Part shown: positions 3,001 through 45,932 of the stretch, one piece after another | How positions within the stretch are numbered: position 1 is the first letter of the stretch | How the letters are laid out: each line of letters begins with the position of its first letter | Origin: a virus | Virus record (IMG/VR): IMGVR_UViG_3300030118_002460 | Location: 22,332 to 86,331 of that record | DNA length: 64,000 nucleotides | Reading direction: 5' to 3' (one strand) | Translations under genes and position numbers: made by a program | Notes under the pieces: generated by a model | What the model was told of the DNA's origin: nothing | Databases searched by the model: none | What the model saw: only the letters and a program-made list of their open reading frames with translations

Positions 3001-4000
3001 TCTGAGAAGAATCAACACACAGCATACACTTGCTGATGCATCAGTTATTGAACCAATTGGAATTGACTACTATCATGTCAGACTGGATATGTCTAAGAAT
3101 GGCAATGATAAGTCTGAAACCTCTGCATCATTTGGTGCTAGATATCTGACTGAGATTAAACTTGGTGGTGGTATCAATGCAAGAGGAACATACAATCTTC
3201 CTTACAGTTTGATCATTCCTAATTTCAACACTACATCACCTACTGGCACTAATATCTTTGGTGCTGTAAGATCTGTGACTGAAACAAGTGTGTCTGGTAC
3301 TGAGGTCTCATACATTGACCAAGGATTCCAAGAGATTGCAATGAAGGAGAAGAACTATTTTGATACACAGAGAATGGTTGTTTCTAAACCCAATGAGCAA
3401 GCATATCTGGGTTCTCTTCCTGGTAATAAGTCATTCACTATGAATCTCAATCTGAATTCATATGACAGAAGACTTTCACCTGCAATTGACCTCAATAGTT
3501 CTGCTGTTGTCTTTGTTTCCAATAGAGTCAATGCTCCTATCAGTGATTATGTCAGAGATTCAAGAGTCAATGGCATAGGTCTGGACCCCAACAGTCTGAT
3601 GTATGTAACCAAGAATGTTACTCTTGAAAATCCTGCAACATCTCTGAGAGTCTTTATTGATGGATATGTATCTAACTTTAATGATGTAAGATTGTTCTAT
3701 GCATTGGATCAAGATGTACCTGCTGTTGAGGCAGTCTACACTCCATTCCCTGGATTTAACAATATTGATGATTTTGGTAATGTAATTAATCCAACATTGA
3801 ATGATGGTACATCTGATGTTGTTGTCAGAAAGTCTGATCAGTACACACAGGAACCTGCTATCAACCTGTTCCAGGAGTATCAATTCTCAATTGAACAACT
3901 CCAACCATTCAGGACTTTCAGGGTCAAACTGATTGGAACATCTTCCAACCAAGCATGTGTTCCACAGTTCAGAAACCTTAGAGTGATTGCACTAGCATAA
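2..4000 (+). CDS. Large virion structural protein, tail fibre/baseplate-associated type (5' truncated)
   Basis: The frame is open from base 2 to the TAA at 3998-4000, so the gene enters from outside the window and its start is not seen. About 1,332 residues are visible. The ATG at 143 is only internal, because codons before it read as normal protein. The sequence is Thr/Ser/Asn/Gly-rich and beta-rich, as in phage tail and fibre proteins. A proline-rich hinge (about residues 488-515) is followed by a segment starting DPLAQTFFVDDETG, which I associate with large cyanophage structural proteins carrying DUF4815. A GSGYT repeat unit lies near 2235-2290. It precedes the neck genes in the virion block. 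Exact virion position is inferred, not shown. Confidence 0.85.
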   Translation, partial: RNSIDVKRKVLRPAHYSTSFNLTLDPNASGDTRFNNLIGSGIRRNGQMLTLDYSEVPWITQPFATRVENVTPFLSFYYQGNIALEPTADIWIETNRLEMRNVSMEGSFRGVAEALGAEITDNADGSRIGATPVLWDSWETTNVQVDITSATTRSESVAASAQRQGTSIGELTGGAGAGADMSASTVEITTINGTTTLAQERSGTQQIINEVINTESFGDRIVNREIQHFMRSRNIQFTGTRLKPFTQLYSFFDGVDVTRFSVPKLIEIQMLTGTFVPGETVTGVMPSSENSQLTNANSNASITFRVANSNHKYGPILAPTDTYTANPYARSNAISTGYTQSSTILNVDTFSLQSEEFPEFNGYIQQGMFLRGENGAEAFVSQVRLITDNVGTLIGSYLVPDSSNPANPLFETGRNLFRLTSSPINSLIRGTTSTSGQEIFYSQADIDNTQEVTLSLRNASVETNDDLQDTRQVTETFTREEVTGFTFVPPPPPPPPPDPPPAPPRPRPARTRRSSDPLAQTFFVDDETGVFVTKIDLFFRTKASTLPVTLQLRETMMGIPSQTILPYSEVEILPQNILTSDDATARTQIQFEAPVYLAGDREYAIVMMSQSTDYTVYISRLGEPDVTTLGTEAGQVLVTSQPLLGSLFKSQNATAWTPSQYEDLKFNLYRSDFVGAGNVQFFNPDLPTNLERISRNGVTAIPRNLSVGIGTTISDGELRIGNTILQADSDATGELVGFAGSITGALALTNVGSGYTPANGQFSYTGVALTAVTGTGLNATADITINNGVAIAATVNAGGKGFRVGDVLTPLSIGSEELGSGMQLSVPELKGFNELILDKVQGTFGPNNRLQFKDVSGIATDINAGIGGSVFPVGPQRINSDGRHLKIFQRNHGMYSGINRVNLQNIQTDVPATQLTNGYQKVETGVISVGNTANFGVFEGVGVGATNPGYVRIGDEIIEYTGVSDTNTLTGITSRGVDGTLPVTHNVNDLVYKYEFAGISLRRINTQHTLADASVIEPIGIDYYHVRLDMSKNGNDKSETSASFGARYLTEIKLGGGINARGTYNLPYSLIIPNFNTTSPTGTNIFGAVRSVTETSVSGTEVSYIDQGFQEIAMKEKNYFDTQRMVVSKPNEQAYLGSLPGNKSFTMNLNLNSYDRRLSPAIDLNSSAVVFVSNRVNAPISDYVRDSRVNGIGLDPNSLMYVTKNVTLENPATSLRVFIDGYVSNFNDVRLFYALDQDVPAVEAVYTPFPGFNNIDDFGNVINPTLNDGTSDVVVRKSDQYTQEPAINLFQEYQFSIEQLQPFRTFRVKLIGTSSNQACVPQFRNLRVIALA

Positions 4001-4230
4001 TGGATTTGTTACCAGTTCAAGGAAAAGATGATTTGCACAGGGACTCCCAGTCCCGTGCAATCATCAATACTGATCATTCAAGATTTGAGGCATACATGAA
4101 TTCAAGGAATAGACTCTCTGCTGAAAAACAGAGAGTTGAGAATCTTGAAAAGAAAGTTGAAGACCTCTCTGATAATATAAATGACATCAAGTCAATGCTC
4201 CAAACTATCATAAAGCAAAATGGCCAATAA
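4000..4230 (+). CDS. Small coiled-coil protein, probable virion component
   Basis: A 76-residue protein whose ATG shares a base with the preceding stop (TAATG), which suggests translational coupling. The C-terminal half (about residues 38-72) is a heptad-like Leu/Ile/Val pattern rich in Glu, Lys and Asp, so a short coiled coil is likely. No enzymatic motif is visible. Its place between two structural genes suggests an accessory tail or baseplate role, but no function can be assigned. Confidence 0.75.
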   Translation: MDLLPVQGKDDLHRDSQSRAIINTDHSRFEAYMNSRNRLSAEKQRVENLEKKVEDLSDNINDIKSMLQTIIKQNGQ

Positions 4231-4597
4231 CACCATTACATTTGACCCTGCTGCTGGTGTAGCATATGGAGTCAATTTTACTATTAACAAAGGTGCTTCT
4301 TTCAGATCAACCTTTCAGGTGACAAACAATGATAACTCAAACTTTGACTTCACTGGTTATGCTGGAACTGCAATGATGAAAAGATCCAATAATGTTGGAT
4401 CTAGTGTGGCAATCGCTGCAACCTTTGCAGTTGGATTTACTAGTGCAAGTAGTGGTCAATTTAAACTATCTTTAACTGACACAGAGGTTAATACTCTAAA
4501 ACCAGGGAGATATTACTATAATATGAATGTCAGTATTGGTTCAAGCGTTTACAGAATCATTGAAGGTAATGCTCTGGTTGTTGGTGGGGCTGTCTAA
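4220..4597 (+). CDS. Small beta-rich structural protein
   Basis: A 125-residue protein overlapping the previous gene by 11 bases. It is rich in Gly, Asn, Thr and Ser with alternating hydrophobic residues, and includes KPGRYYYNMNVSIG near the C terminus. This looks like an Ig-like or jelly-roll beta fold, similar in style to the N-terminal domains of baseplate upper proteins. The stop codon lies inside the late promoter element at 4594-4600. I do not recognise a specific family; a virion role is inferred from context. Confidence 0.75.
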   Translation: MANNTITFDPAAGVAYGVNFTINKGASFRSTFQVTNNDNSNFDFTGYAGTAMMKRSNNVGSSVAIAATFAVGFTSASSGQFKLSLTDTEVNTLKPGRYYYNMNVSIGSSVYRIIEGNALVVGGAV

Positions 4598-4600
4598 ATA
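4594..4600 (+). promoter_or_regulatory. Putative T4-type late promoter (CTAAATA) for gp13
   Basis: CTAAATA overlaps the TAA stop of the preceding gene and lies 19 bases before the gp13 start. T4-like late promoters recognised by gp55 have a TATAAATA-type -10 element and no -35 box. Confidence 0.6.
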
Positions 4601-4619
4601 GTAAAAAAAATAGTGTATA

Positions 4620-5498
4620 ATGGCTCAACCTTCTACACGACAAGAATTGATAGATTATTGCCTGAGACAGTTGGGAGCACCTGTCCTGGAAATAAATGTA
4701 GCAGAAGAACAGGTTCAAGACTTGGTTGATGATGCTATACAATTCTTTCAAGAAAGACATTTTGATGGTGTTCATCAGACGTATCTGAAATATCGTATCA
4801 CACAAGATGATGTTGATAGAGGTTTGGCGCGTCCACCAGGAGCACCAACTAGTGATGCAGGAAGTGTTGGTATTGCTTCCACCTCAGCAACTACAAATAT
4901 TGTAGGAACTGCCACAACATTCACATATTATGAGAACAGCAATTATCTGCAAGTAAATCCTGATATCATTGGTATCAATAAAGTATTCCAGTTTGATGGA
5001 TCTTATAGTGGATCTGGAATGTTCAATATCAAATATCAATACATGCTTAATGATGTATTTGGTATGTGGGGAGGATATGGTGCATCAGGAATGGACCTGA
5101 CCTCCTATGATATGACTATGAGTTATTTGGAGACTATGAACTTCCTTCTGAATACTCATAAACAGATTAGATTTAATCAAAGAAAAGATAGAATGTATCT
5201 TGATATTGATTGGGAAACTTTGAAAAAGGATGATTATCTGGTTATTGACTGTTGGAGAGCAATGGATCCCAATGACTACTCAAGAGTCTGGAATGATTCA
5301 TTCCTGAAACCATATCTGACTGCTCTTATTAAGAAGCAGTGGGGTCAAAACCTTATCAAATTCCAGGGTGTCAAACTTCCTGGTGGCATTGAGTTTAATG
5401 GCAGAGCAATCTTTGATGATGGTCAGAGAGAACTTGATGAGATTAGACAAAAGATGCTGAGCACCTATGAACTTCCACCATTAGATATGATAGGTTGA
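4620..5498 (+). CDS. 13: Neck protein gp13
   Basis: A 292-residue protein close to T4 gp13 (309 residues). In T4, gp13 joins gp14 to form the neck that seals the filled head and accepts the tail. The N-terminal helical region (RQELIDYCLRQLGAP, then a VDDAIQFFQERHFDG segment) is typical of cyanophage gp13. The family assignment also follows from position: gp14 starts 4 bases after the stop, then gp15, gp16 and gp17 follow as in T4. No SD is obvious; the start is chosen as the first ATG after the late promoter. Confidence 0.93.
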   Translation: MAQPSTRQELIDYCLRQLGAPVLEINVAEEQVQDLVDDAIQFFQERHFDGVHQTYLKYRITQDDVDRGLARPPGAPTSDAGSVGIASTSATTNIVGTATTFTYYENSNYLQVNPDIIGINKVFQFDGSYSGSGMFNIKYQYMLNDVFGMWGGYGASGMDLTSYDMTMSYLETMNFLLNTHKQIRFNQRKDRMYLDIDWETLKKDDYLVIDCWRAMDPNDYSRVWNDSFLKPYLTALIKKQWGQNLIKFQGVKLPGGIEFNGRAIFDDGQRELDEIRQKMLSTYELPPLDMIG

Positions 5499-5502
5499 TT
5501 CC

Positions 5503-6906
5503 ATGCTCAATCCATTTTTCCTCAACAGTAGCACTAGTGAGCAGAATCTGATTCAGAGTCTGGTCAATGAACAACTGAAGATGTATGGCGTTGAGATATT
5601 TTATATACCAAGAAAGTATCTCAAAAAGAACACTGTAATCAAAGAGGTTATTCAGTCTGAGTTCACTAGTGCTTTCCCTATTGAAGCATATGTGGATAAC
5701 TATGAGGGATATGGTGGTCAGGGAACTCTGCTGTCAAAATTTGGCATCATGGAGAAGGATGACCTGACTTTGATTGTGTCAAGAGAAAGATATGAAGGTT
5801 ACATTACCCCCCTCATAAAGAATCTTCCACACATTGAGTTAGCAGATAGACCAAAAGAAGGAGATCTAATTTATTTCCCTCTTGGTGATAGGTTGTTTGA
5901 GATCAAGTATGTAGAACATGAGCAACCATTCTATCAACTTCAAAAGAACTATGTCTATCAGTTGAGATGTGAACTCTTCAGATATGAGGATGAAGTTCTG
6001 GATACAGGTGTTGACACTATTGATGATGAGATTGAACAAATTGGTTATATCCAAACTCTTGGATTAGTTGGCACAGGTGAAACTGCAACTGGAACTGCTG
6101 GTCTATGTACAAGTGGTGCAGTTCAGAGAGTTTACATTACCAATATGGGTAGAGGATATACAGCACCACCTAGTGTTGGTTTCAGTTCTGCCCCAGATGG
6201 TGGTGTGACAGCACAGGGTGTGGTATCTATCTCAGACCAATATGTTGGTTGTAAGGGATTTGGTGATGGTAAGGTGGTATCTGTATGCTTAACCAACGCT
6301 GGTTGTGGATATACAGTTGCCCCTATGGTCAAGTTCACTGGTGGAGGAGGATTAGGTGCTGCAGCAACCACTGGAATATGCACTCATGGTTCTATACAGT
6401 TCATTACTATTACCAATCCAGGTGCAGGATATACTAACAATGTTGATATCTCAATTGGATACACAGGAGCAACTGGACCAGGATTTGTAACTGCAACTGC
6501 TACTGGTGTGGTTAACAATGCTGGTATTGTCACTTATGTCTGTATCACAAATGCAGGATGTGGTTACACCATTGCACCTGAACTTGAATTCAATAATCCA
6601 CCAGGTATTGGATCATCAATAGGGGGTTCATTTATCTTCAATGAAATTGTTATTGGACAAACATCCAACACTGAGGCAAGAGTCAAGGAGTATGATGCTG
6701 TGAATAACACACTAGAGATATCTGTTGTCTCTGGTGAGTTTGGAGTTGGTGAGACCATTGTTGGTCAGGAGTCAGGAGCAAGACATGTTGTCAGAACTTT
6801 GACCACTGATGACCTAGTGACACCATTTGCAGATAATGATACAATAGAATTAGAAGCAGACAAGATTATAGATTTTACAACTACTAACCCATTTGGTATG
6901 CCCTAA
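5503..6906 (+). CDS. 14: Neck protein gp14, with a long repeat-containing C-terminal extension
   Basis: 467 residues against about 256 for T4 gp14. The first about 180 residues, including FYIPRKYLKKN and a segment around EAYVDNYEGYGGQ, match the gp14 type. From about residue 200 the protein contains at least four repeats with a TNxGxGYT core (around residues 209, 263, 301 and 346), separated by Gly/Ala/Thr-rich stretches. These look like fibre-type modules grafted onto a neck protein. gp14 binds gp13 at the head-tail connector, so the extension may project from the neck. The gp14 call is strong; the role of the repeats is inference. Confidence 0.92.
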   Translation: MLNPFFLNSSTSEQNLIQSLVNEQLKMYGVEIFYIPRKYLKKNTVIKEVIQSEFTSAFPIEAYVDNYEGYGGQGTLLSKFGIMEKDDLTLIVSRERYEGYITPLIKNLPHIELADRPKEGDLIYFPLGDRLFEIKYVEHEQPFYQLQKNYVYQLRCELFRYEDEVLDTGVDTIDDEIEQIGYIQTLGLVGTGETATGTAGLCTSGAVQRVYITNMGRGYTAPPSVGFSSAPDGGVTAQGVVSISDQYVGCKGFGDGKVVSVCLTNAGCGYTVAPMVKFTGGGGLGAAATTGICTHGSIQFITITNPGAGYTNNVDISIGYTGATGPGFVTATATGVVNNAGIVTYVCITNAGCGYTIAPELEFNNPPGIGSSIGGSFIFNEIVIGQTSNTEARVKEYDAVNNTLEISVVSGEFGVGETIVGQESGARHVVRTLTTDDLVTPFADNDTIELEADKIIDFTTTNPFGMP

Positions 6907-43059: not shown

Positions 43060-43306
43060 AGTTTTAATCCTTGATAAAGTAATTCTTCTCACACAGATTG
43101 AAGAAGTGTCTGCTGATCTGGGAGAACCAGATTGTAAACTGATTGAGCCATTTGTTATTAATCCAGATGGCTCTGGCACATTGTCTCCATGGTTGATTGA
43201 TTTGACAACCCAGAATACATTTATGATTCATTCTGATAAAATTTTGACCATTGCTGATCCCAATGGTAAACTGATTGATAAGTATGAAACTCTGGTGAAG
43301 GTATGA
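43049..43306 (+). CDS. Small beta-barrel-like protein, third of three look-alikes
   Basis: 85 residues. LKVLILDKVILLTQIEEV, CKLIEPFVI, SPWLIDLTTQNTFMIHSDKI and LTIADPN, with a final KYETLV segment, parallel the pattern in proteins at 27641 and 40010. An Sm-like small barrel is suggested. It lies directly upstream of the polymerase gene, overlapping it by 4 bases, so it could bind the same transcript or protein complex. Confidence 0.75.
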   Translation: MNLKVLILDKVILLTQIEEVSADLGEPDCKLIEPFVINPDGSGTLSPWLIDLTTQNTFMIHSDKILTIADPNGKLIDKYETLVKV

Positions 43307-44766
43307 AGTTTTACACCAATGCCCAGGTGATTGGTAACAATGTCCTGGTTCGTGGTTTTGAGAATGGAAGAAGCTTCACTGCCAAAGAAGAGTATCAACC
43401 AACTCTTTATGTGAAGTCAAAGAAAGAAAGTAAGTGGAAGACTCTTGATGGGGAATGTGTAGAACCTATTCAACCAGGCACAATCAGAGATTGTAGAGAA
43501 TTCTATAAGAAGTATGATGATGTAGATGGATTCCCTATCTATGGGAATGAGAGGTATGTCTATCAATATCTCTCTGACAAATATCCTGGTGAAGAAATCA
43601 AGTTTGATATCAAGAAGATTAACTTGGTGACTATGGATATTGAGGTCCAGGCAGAGGATGGATTTCCTGACCCTGAATCTTGTTCAGAAGAGATGTTGAC
43701 TATCTCTATTCAGGACTACAATACAAAGCAGATCACAACTTGGGGCAGGTATCCCTATGTGCCCACACAGAAGAATGTAACCTATCACCAGTTCAGTGAA
43801 GAGGTGGAGATGCTGAATGCATTCCTATACTGGTGGCAGAATAATACACCTGATGTTGTCACTGGTTGGAATGTTAGATTGTATGATATTCCATATCTTT
43901 GTGGAAGGATCAGCAGGATCATGGGTCCTAAGAAGATGAGAGAACTATCTCCTTGGGGTCTTGTGAATCATGAAGAAGTCATGATTACAGGCAGACAGTT
44001 CAATGTCTTTGACATCACTGGTATTTCCACACTTGATTATCTTGATCTGTATAAGAAGTTCACTTATGTGAATCGTGAATCATACAGACTGGACTTTATT
44101 GCAGAGACTGAACTGGGTCAGAAGAAACTGGACCACAGTGAGTTTGATACTTTCAAAGACTTTTACAGAGGTAACTGGAAGAAGTTTGTTGACTACAACA
44201 TCATTGACGTGGAACTGGTTGACAGGTTGGAGGAGAAACTTAAACTGATTGAACTGGCAATTACTATGGCATATGATGCCAAGGTAAACTATGTTGATGT
44301 GATGTATCAGGTGAGAATGTGGGACACAATTATCTACAACTATTTGAAAAGGAGGAACATAGTTGTCCCCCAGAAGGATAGGAGTGAGAAGGGTGATAAG
44401 TTTGCTGGTGCCTATGTGAAAGAACCTACACCAGGAGTCTATGATTGGGTAGCATCTTTTGACCTTAACTCTCTGTATCCACACCTGATGATGCAGTACA
44501 ATATTTCACCAGAGACTCTGATGGAGGAGAGACATCCATCTGTTTCAGTGAATAAAATTCTTGATGAGTCTGTCACCTTTGAGATGTATAAGGACTATGC
44601 TGTGTGTGCTAATGGTGCAATGTATAGAAAAGATGTGAAGGGGTTCTTGCCTGAACTGATGGAGAAGATGTATGCTGAAAGAACAGTCTTCAAGAAGAAG
44701 ATGCTTCAATCAAAACAGGCACTGGTTGATATTGAGAATGAAATGAAGCGCAGGAGGAAGAAGTAA
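43303..44766 (+). CDS. 43: DNA polymerase gp43, N-terminal fragment (gp43A)
   Basis: 487 residues. Family B polymerase: ExoI TMDIEVQ (D112, E114), ExoII TGWNVRLYDIPY at about 187, ExoIII YNIIDVELV at about 298, and palm motif A SFDLNSLYPHL at about 386. It then continues through part of the fingers and stops after KRRRKK. Motifs B and C are absent and are found in the next gene. T4 gp43 is one chain of 898 residues; here the two frames total 875. A natural split is more likely than an error because the next gene begins at TAATG with its own ATG. Confidence 0.95.
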   Translation: MKFYTNAQVIGNNVLVRGFENGRSFTAKEEYQPTLYVKSKKESKWKTLDGECVEPIQPGTIRDCREFYKKYDDVDGFPIYGNERYVYQYLSDKYPGEEIKFDIKKINLVTMDIEVQAEDGFPDPESCSEEMLTISIQDYNTKQITTWGRYPYVPTQKNVTYHQFSEEVEMLNAFLYWWQNNTPDVVTGWNVRLYDIPYLCGRISRIMGPKKMRELSPWGLVNHEEVMITGRQFNVFDITGISTLDYLDLYKKFTYVNRESYRLDFIAETELGQKKLDHSEFDTFKDFYRGNWKKFVDYNIIDVELVDRLEEKLKLIELAITMAYDAKVNYVDVMYQVRMWDTIIYNYLKRRNIVVPQKDRSEKGDKFAGAYVKEPTPGVYDWVASFDLNSLYPHLMMQYNISPETLMEERHPSVSVNKILDESVTFEMYKDYAVCANGAMYRKDVKGFLPELMEKMYAERTVFKKKMLQSKQALVDIENEMKRRRKK

Positions 44767-45932
44767 TGGGATATTTGATTGGTGGGGCAGGTGAAGGACC
44801 AGAGCAGGAGATTGTTGCATCTTCTGATAATCCCTATGCATCATTGTCTGATAGAGAACTGGTTAACCTTCACAAGAGGACAATCAATGATATTTCTAAG
44901 TACAACAACTTTCAGATGGCAAGAAAGATTGCCCTGAACTCTGCTTATGGTGCTATTGGTAACCAGTATTTCAGATACTATAAGTTAGCAAATGCTGAAG
45001 CAATCACTCTATCTGGTCAAACATCTATCAGATGGATTGAAAATCGTATGAATAGATACCTAAATAATCTGTTAAAAACAGAAGATGTGGATTATGTCAT
45101 TGCATCTGACACTGACTCAATCTATATTAATTTTGGACCTCTTGTTGATAAATTTTTTGGTAATCACACTGGTAACAAAGTCAAACTTGTGGGCATCTTG
45201 GACCAGATCTGCCAAGAGAAACTGGAACCATTTATTGAGGAAAGTTACCAGGAACTTGCGTCGTATGTAAATGCATATGCCCAGAAGATGCAGATGAAGA
45301 GGGAGAACATTGCAGATAGGGGCATCTGGACAGCAAAGAAGAGATACATTCTTAATGTGTGGGATAGTGAGGGGGTCAGATATGATGAACCCAAACTCAA
45401 GATGATGGGCATTGAGGCAGTCAAATCCTCTACACCTGCACCTTGTAGGAAGATGATTAAGGATGCTCTGCACCTGATGATGGAGGGCACAGAGGATGAT
45501 GTGATTGACTTTATTGATGATGCAAGAGCAAAGTTCAAGAAGATGCCACCAGAAGAGATTGCATTCCCAAGGACTGTATCTGATGTAACCAAGCACAAAG
45601 CACACTCTACAATCTATGGAAAGGGGTGCCCCATTCATGTGCGTGGTGCTCTGCTATATAATCATTATATTAAAGAGAAGAATCTGACTAACAAGTATTC
45701 TTCTATCAACAATGGAGAAAAGATCAAGTTCATTTATTTGAAGAAAGCAAACCCCATTAGAGAGAATGTTATTTCATTCATCTCTGACTTTCCCTATGAA
45801 CTTGGTGTTGACAAATATATTGATTATGATTTACAATTTGAGAAAGCTTTCTTGGAACCTGTAAAGGTAATCCTAGATGCCATTGGTTGGAATGTAGAGA
45901 AAGTTGTAAACCTGGAACTTTTCTTTGGCTAG
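44766..45932 (+). CDS. 43: DNA polymerase gp43, C-terminal fragment (gp43B)
   Basis: 388 residues beginning at an ATG that shares one base with the gp43A stop. Residues 1-35 (MGYLIGGAGEGPEQEIVASS) are a non-conserved extension. Then come fingers motif B ARKIALNSAYGAIGN (about 52-66), palm motif C SDTDSIYIN (about 114-122) and the thumb motif AKKRY (about 191). The active site therefore must be assembled from both polypeptides. The relative frame is -1 to gp43A, so reinitiation or, less likely, frameshifting is needed. Confidence 0.95.
   Translation: MGYLIGGAGEGPEQEIVASSDNPYASLSDRELVNLHKRTINDISKYNNFQMARKIALNSAYGAIGNQYFRYYKLANAEAITLSGQTSIRWIENRMNRYLNNLLKTEDVDYVIASDTDSIYINFGPLVDKFFGNHTGNKVKLVGILDQICQEKLEPFIEESYQELASYVNAYAQKMQMKRENIADRGIWTAKKRYILNVWDSEGVRYDEPKLKMMGIEAVKSSTPAPCRKMIKDALHLMMEGTEDDVIDFIDDARAKFKKMPPEEIAFPRTVSDVTKHKAHSTIYGKGCPIHVRGALLYNHYIKEKNLTNKYSSINNGEKIKFIYLKKANPIRENVISFISDFPYELGVDKYIDYDLQFEKAFLEPVKVILDAIGWNVEKVVNLELFFG

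Follow-up and report, generated by a model that had tools for sequence, protein, structure and literature searches.

DNA polymerases of T4-type phages encoded in two pieces are already known from Aeromonas phages. Both PMC2988022 and PMC2993671, citing Petrov et al. 2010, attribute a split gene 43 (43A/43B) to Aeromonas phages 25, 44RR and 31. The 43A and 43B of phage 25, the only pair known to assemble into an active enzyme, co-purify and are active, and a Seg-like endonuclease, seg43, occupies their junction (PMC2988022). The nrdA of phage Aeh1 and the topoisomerase (gene 60) of T4 are likewise essential enzymes that a homing endonuclease gene has interrupted and whose separate chains come back together (PMC2988022), although these are other enzymes and keep the mobile gene at their junction. 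The replicative polymerase of the OM43 phages MEP401/402 also occupies two ORFs, with a small ORF between them (PMC10580990), but it belongs to family A and is unrelated. For cyanophages, no paper describing a split gp43 was found in the open literature, although GenBank records of Synechococcus phage ACG-2014f do annotate two gp43 CDS.

The window analyzed here is a 64,000-nucleotide stretch of a partial, 86,331-base viral metagenome contig, read as deriving from a virus of ocean cyanobacteria (Kyanoviridae) whose DNA-copying enzyme is encoded by two overlapping genes. Among sequenced phages, the nearest are the Synechococcus phages RB11-B, RN05-S, S-B43 and S-B05 (~77-81% DNA identity to the window), and the gp43 of all four is unbroken at the window's split position. 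The gene order regA-like, hsp20, gp43, uvsX, gp41 is common to the relatives and places the window gp43 in the regA-43-uvsX-41 replication cluster, as for T4-type gp43. In the S-B43 record (MN018232, 4441-6723), gp43 is truncated at residue 760 and uvsX has no match, possibly because of an assembly misjoin.

Both ORFs lie on the plus strand and together contain the motifs and catalytic residues of a T4-type family B DNA polymerase. The first, gp43A (43303..44766; 487 aa), comprises the exonuclease domain with the DIE motif (43636..43644; D112, E114), palm motif A (SFDLNSLYPHL, 44455..44487; catalytic D387) and the first fingers helix, while the second, gp43B (44766..45932; 388 aa), comprises the second fingers helix, motif B (RKIALNSAYGAIGN, 44922..44963), palm motif C (ASDTDSIYIN, 45102..45131; catalytic D115, D117), the AKKRY motif (45333..45347) and the thumb. 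The division of the motifs between the frames, proposed in the initial annotation, was borne out by the ORFs, by alignments, by Pfam (the exonuclease and the beginning of DNA_pol_B in ORF 1, the remaining DNA_pol_B in ORF 2) and by PHROGs (N-half family phrog_2062 and C-half family phrog_1918, respectively). Direct reading likewise agreed with the proposed meeting point at TAATG (44764..44768), where the final base of the first stop codon opens the second frame, in a -1 relation, so that stop and start share one base. An AGGAGG Shine-Dalgarno-like site (44752..44757) lies within gp43A, 8 nt before the gp43B start. Residues D112/E114, D195, D302 and D387 of gp43A and K54, N58 (motif B) and D115/D117 of gp43B were invariant in the alignment of relatives; since invariant catalytic residues occur in both products, the active site of the polymerase is shared between two chains, D387 being on gp43A and D115/D117 with K54/N58 on gp43B.

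Comparison with the solved RB69 polymerase structure maps the break between residues ~505 and 543, in the fingertip loop. AlphaFold models agree with this position: the AF2 model of gp43A (pLDDT 80) has a long helix at its end (448-486), and in gp43B a disordered N-terminus gives way to a helix at residue 29. The Aeromonas enzymes, compared through phage AS4 and PMC2988022, are T4-type family B polymerases broken at the same fingers tip, between motifs A and B, as had been suggested from the window alone. The kind of split is therefore already known; the novelty lies in an overlapping arrangement free of endonuclease genes in a different virus family, in a new extension that is conserved, and in evidence that the break moves between viruses. 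The Aeromonas halves are separated by an intercistronic stretch, whereas those of the window overlap by one base, and the cyanophage-type junction is one that HNH genes, purM and other genes have in common. Among unsplit polymerases, the fingertip of RN05-S (L003) and L112 is longer and resembles the tail of a split gp43A, in contrast to that of RB11-B (L006), whose gp43 is otherwise mostly 93-100% identical to that of RN05-S; a re-fused or pre-split form is possible.

The N-terminal extension of gp43B (MGYLIGG..., 44766..44849) spans ~28-35 residues. It had been described as a 35-residue non-conserved extension; it exists and is absent from unsplit relatives, but among split relatives it is homologous and conserved. 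The 26 different DNA versions of its core encode GYLIGG in 25 cases and GFLIDG in one, and its dN/dS is 0.08-0.11. In the model of the isolated C half, residues 1-10 have a pLDDT of ~33, and with such low confidence no role can be read from the structure. The idea that GYLIGG is a fragment of motif B found no support.

The break recurs widely. The same junction is present in contigs of three other metagenomes (L007-L009; protein 92% identical), and the break occurs, with variations, in 21 distinct metagenomic sequences besides the window and in 45 GenBank records of ACG-2014f, which share the homologous extension. Comparison of the window with L007 or L010 gave dN/dS of 0.04-0.05 for gp43A and ~0.06 for gp43B, at near-saturated synonymous divergence, pointing to strong purifying selection on both halves. 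These sequence comparisons make it highly probable that the window encodes a functional, two-polypeptide T4-type polymerase, in the endonuclease-free form of a split that is both inherited and horizontally moving. Both halves would be made from a single message through coupled (re)initiation at TAATG, aided by the AGGAGG inside the end of gp43A, and the two stable products would assemble non-covalently, each supplying part of the active site, with the break at the exposed tip of the fingers hairpin. Tight overlap with AGGAGG is the usual arrangement for translational coupling, and would be consistent with it here; translational re-initiation itself has been described (PMC2268962). The gp43B start codon of the tight forms is ATG or GTG, usually within TAATG or TAGTG, and in most of them the gp43A tail encodes a G-rich, Shine-Dalgarno-like stretch.

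Other homologous junctions are occupied, with 107 to 974 nt between the halves. The inserts include a 153-aa HNH-type endonuclease gene (L010, L044; phrog_374, E 1e-56), a gene for a purM-like AIR synthase (L011), small ORFs (L012, L013) and a 389-nt insert with two small ORFs (ACG-2014f). In a second set of loci, L126 and L191-L200, a Seg-like GIY-YIG ORF (SegE_GIY-YIG, a weak Pfam match) lies between the halves and recalls the seg43 of Aeromonas phage 25 (PMC2988022). The initial annotation had noted a join free of homing genes, which is correct for the window, but homing endonuclease genes fill the same junction in close relatives. The HNH gene of the L010 type is ~99% identical across loci whose gp43A differ by ~25% in DNA (L180 versus L181). 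Such near-identical endonucleases in divergent alleles, together with a conversion tract, mark loci invaded by homing endonucleases and were found in relatives, not in the window; likewise, an intercistronic stretch or Seg endonuclease is present at the junction in L191-L200, and the window has a one-base overlap there. A motif-B-like remnant following gp43A in Seg-bearing loci was considered as a target-site duplication and rejected, its similarity to the locus's own motif B being matched by 40 to 435 of 500 shuffles.

Wider separations were also observed. In more distant T4-type viruses (L102-L111, L120, L128, L129) the gp43 halves lie hundreds to thousands of bases apart, with tRNA-like, methyltransferase-like, HNH or GIY-YIG-like ORFs between them. 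Other cyanophages have a second gp43 split site (L017 286-3486, L032 302-3633, L065 1804-5041), where the N half stops just past palm motif A in a new, helical-looking tail (ELNRRISELESML) and is followed by an endonuclease-like ORF (GIY-YIG-like in L017, HNH-like in L032 and L065) that overlaps a C half with a new, helical-looking head; this tail and head might pair. In L017, an intein-like sequence that includes an HNH-type endonuclease region (CLVAGTKIQTENG...VEGEHHYILGNGLVSHN) apparently interrupts uvsX (3638-5732).

The start of the second chain differs in several insert-bearing relatives. The gp43B start of the window is ATG, whereas the aligned codon is ATT, 5 nt after GGAGG, in all seven HNH-bearing contigs, which represent several different gp43B alleles and were found with a pattern leaving the start codon open. 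Among the eight ACG-2014f sequences read, the aligned codon is ATT in six and ATC in two, 4 nt after GAGGT. L044/L210 and five of these eight sequences contain no in-frame ATG, GTG or TTG from the upstream stop to motif B; elsewhere, an in-frame GTG lies 15 nt upstream of the aligned start (L010-type alleles) or just upstream (L174), or a TTG three codons downstream (L002). The simplest reading of these sequences would be AUU or AUC initiation of gp43B in HNH-invaded alleles and ACG-2014f. GenBank places the gp43B start of near-identical ACG-2014f sequences (L002, L173-L179) at four different positions; those past motif B cannot be right. With ATG, GTG and TTG absent from the conserved start, automatic gene callers fail on this gene, a practical consequence being that gp43B is misplaced or truncated in such records.

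On a polymerase tree built from gp43B with the extension removed, split alleles do not group together but lie dispersed among unsplit alleles. The GYLIGG-type split requires 11 changes on this tree, at least six of them forced by well-supported branches, and AU tests rejected a single GYLIGG-split clade (p 6e-38) as well as a single clade of all split alleles (p 2e-4). The clearest case of transfer is L193, in which a 1.1-kb endonuclease cassette has cleanly converted an allele of the unsplit type. On either side of the junction, its gp43 is ~92% identical to that of unsplit L016, while the junction with its Seg-like gene is 99.9% identical to L192 over 739 bp, the remaining gp43 differing from L192 by ~20-45%; the foreign tract extends from ~130 nt before the gp43A stop to ~200 nt into gp43B. 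This is the pattern predicted for homing with co-conversion, and an assembly join would need two switches at places without any long stretch of identity between L016-like and L192-like sequences. The near-identity of the RN05-S and RB11-B gp43 outside the fingertip is a comparable pattern. A second apparent recombinant, L183 (gp43A 100%, gp43B 77% identical to L180), could have been misassembled within the shared endonuclease gene and was therefore excluded from the main evidence. The L193 conversion implies that homing can make split polymerases.

The L193 chimera is of the Seg type, not of the window's GYLIGG type, for which the scatter on the tree and the HNH insertions suggest that the junction arose or spread through an endonuclease. 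Our tentative proposal, which we hold at slightly less than even confidence, is that homing endonucleases turn intact polymerases into two-chain enzymes by copying the broken fingertip and their own gene into unsplit alleles by gene conversion, and that the gene could then be lost, leaving a clean overlap like that of the window, with HNH-invaded alleles and ACG-2014f starting the second chain at AUU/AUC. Alternatively, the split may have arisen once without a mobile gene, the scatter reflecting repeated re-fusion and the endonucleases having later invaded a ready-made junction. The HNH genes sit exactly at the tight junction, their recipients retain their own gp43A tails, the long fingertip of unsplit RN05-S resembles a split tail, and the order of events is likewise undecided for Aeromonas (PMC2988022); L193 and L192, however, show unsplit-type backbones converted by a Seg cassette, and we regard a single origin as unlikely, if still a serious contender. 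Repeated re-fusion or general recombination could account for part of the scatter.

Programmed -1 frameshifting or ribosome bypassing would fuse the frames into one protein. The -1 relation and one-base overlap would be compatible with this, but no slippery heptamer was seen on direct reading of the window junction, and the genes lying within the junction of relatives argue against fusion, as do a terminator-like hairpin at the L042 junction, the different geometry of L021 (an in-frame stop followed directly by GTG) and the retention of ATG or GTG starts, mostly with a Shine-Dalgarno-like site, in tight forms; frameshift fusion thus appears very unlikely. Restoration of a single polymerase by RNA or protein splicing, through a group I intron or split intein, seems more improbable still. 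Introns are known in gene 43 of certain T4 relatives (PMC2993671), and relatives with inserts lack an ATG where gp43B should start, but the window has no insert. At gathering level, Rfam matched no intron in the window or in seven loci with inserts, around those of L002, L010 and L044 there was no match even at E up to 1, and Pfam gave no intein match. Working the L010 sequence by hand yielded no in-frame group I join, and with this and the absent Rfam matches a group I intron was rejected.

It is equally improbable that the gene is decaying, with an inactive polymerase and a genome replicated by another enzyme. A second polymerase could lie elsewhere in the genome, the contig being incomplete, but gp43B was the only match to a gp43 C half in the 86-kb contig, and low dN/dS on both halves, the invariance of every catalytic residue and the sharing of the split by ACG-2014f isolates speak against decay. 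A frameshift introduced by sequencing or assembly into an otherwise ordinary, unbroken gp43, conceivable for a metagenomic contig and named beforehand as a single-base error that would fuse the frames, is refuted by the recurrence of the break in independent contigs (L007-L009 and many more divergent ones), which makes it neither an assembly error nor chance, by the 100-970 nt, including whole genes, between the halves of relatives, and by a conserved extension that unsplit genes lack.

These results show that a replicative polymerase broken across its active site is not confined to a few Aeromonas phages: in T4-type viruses of cyanobacteria and their relatives, such a break is recurrent and apparently transmissible. 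Selfish DNA-cutting genes at the break in relatives seem to spread it from virus to virus, and this recurrent, apparently transmissible split makes directly testable how selfish endonucleases reshape essential genes.
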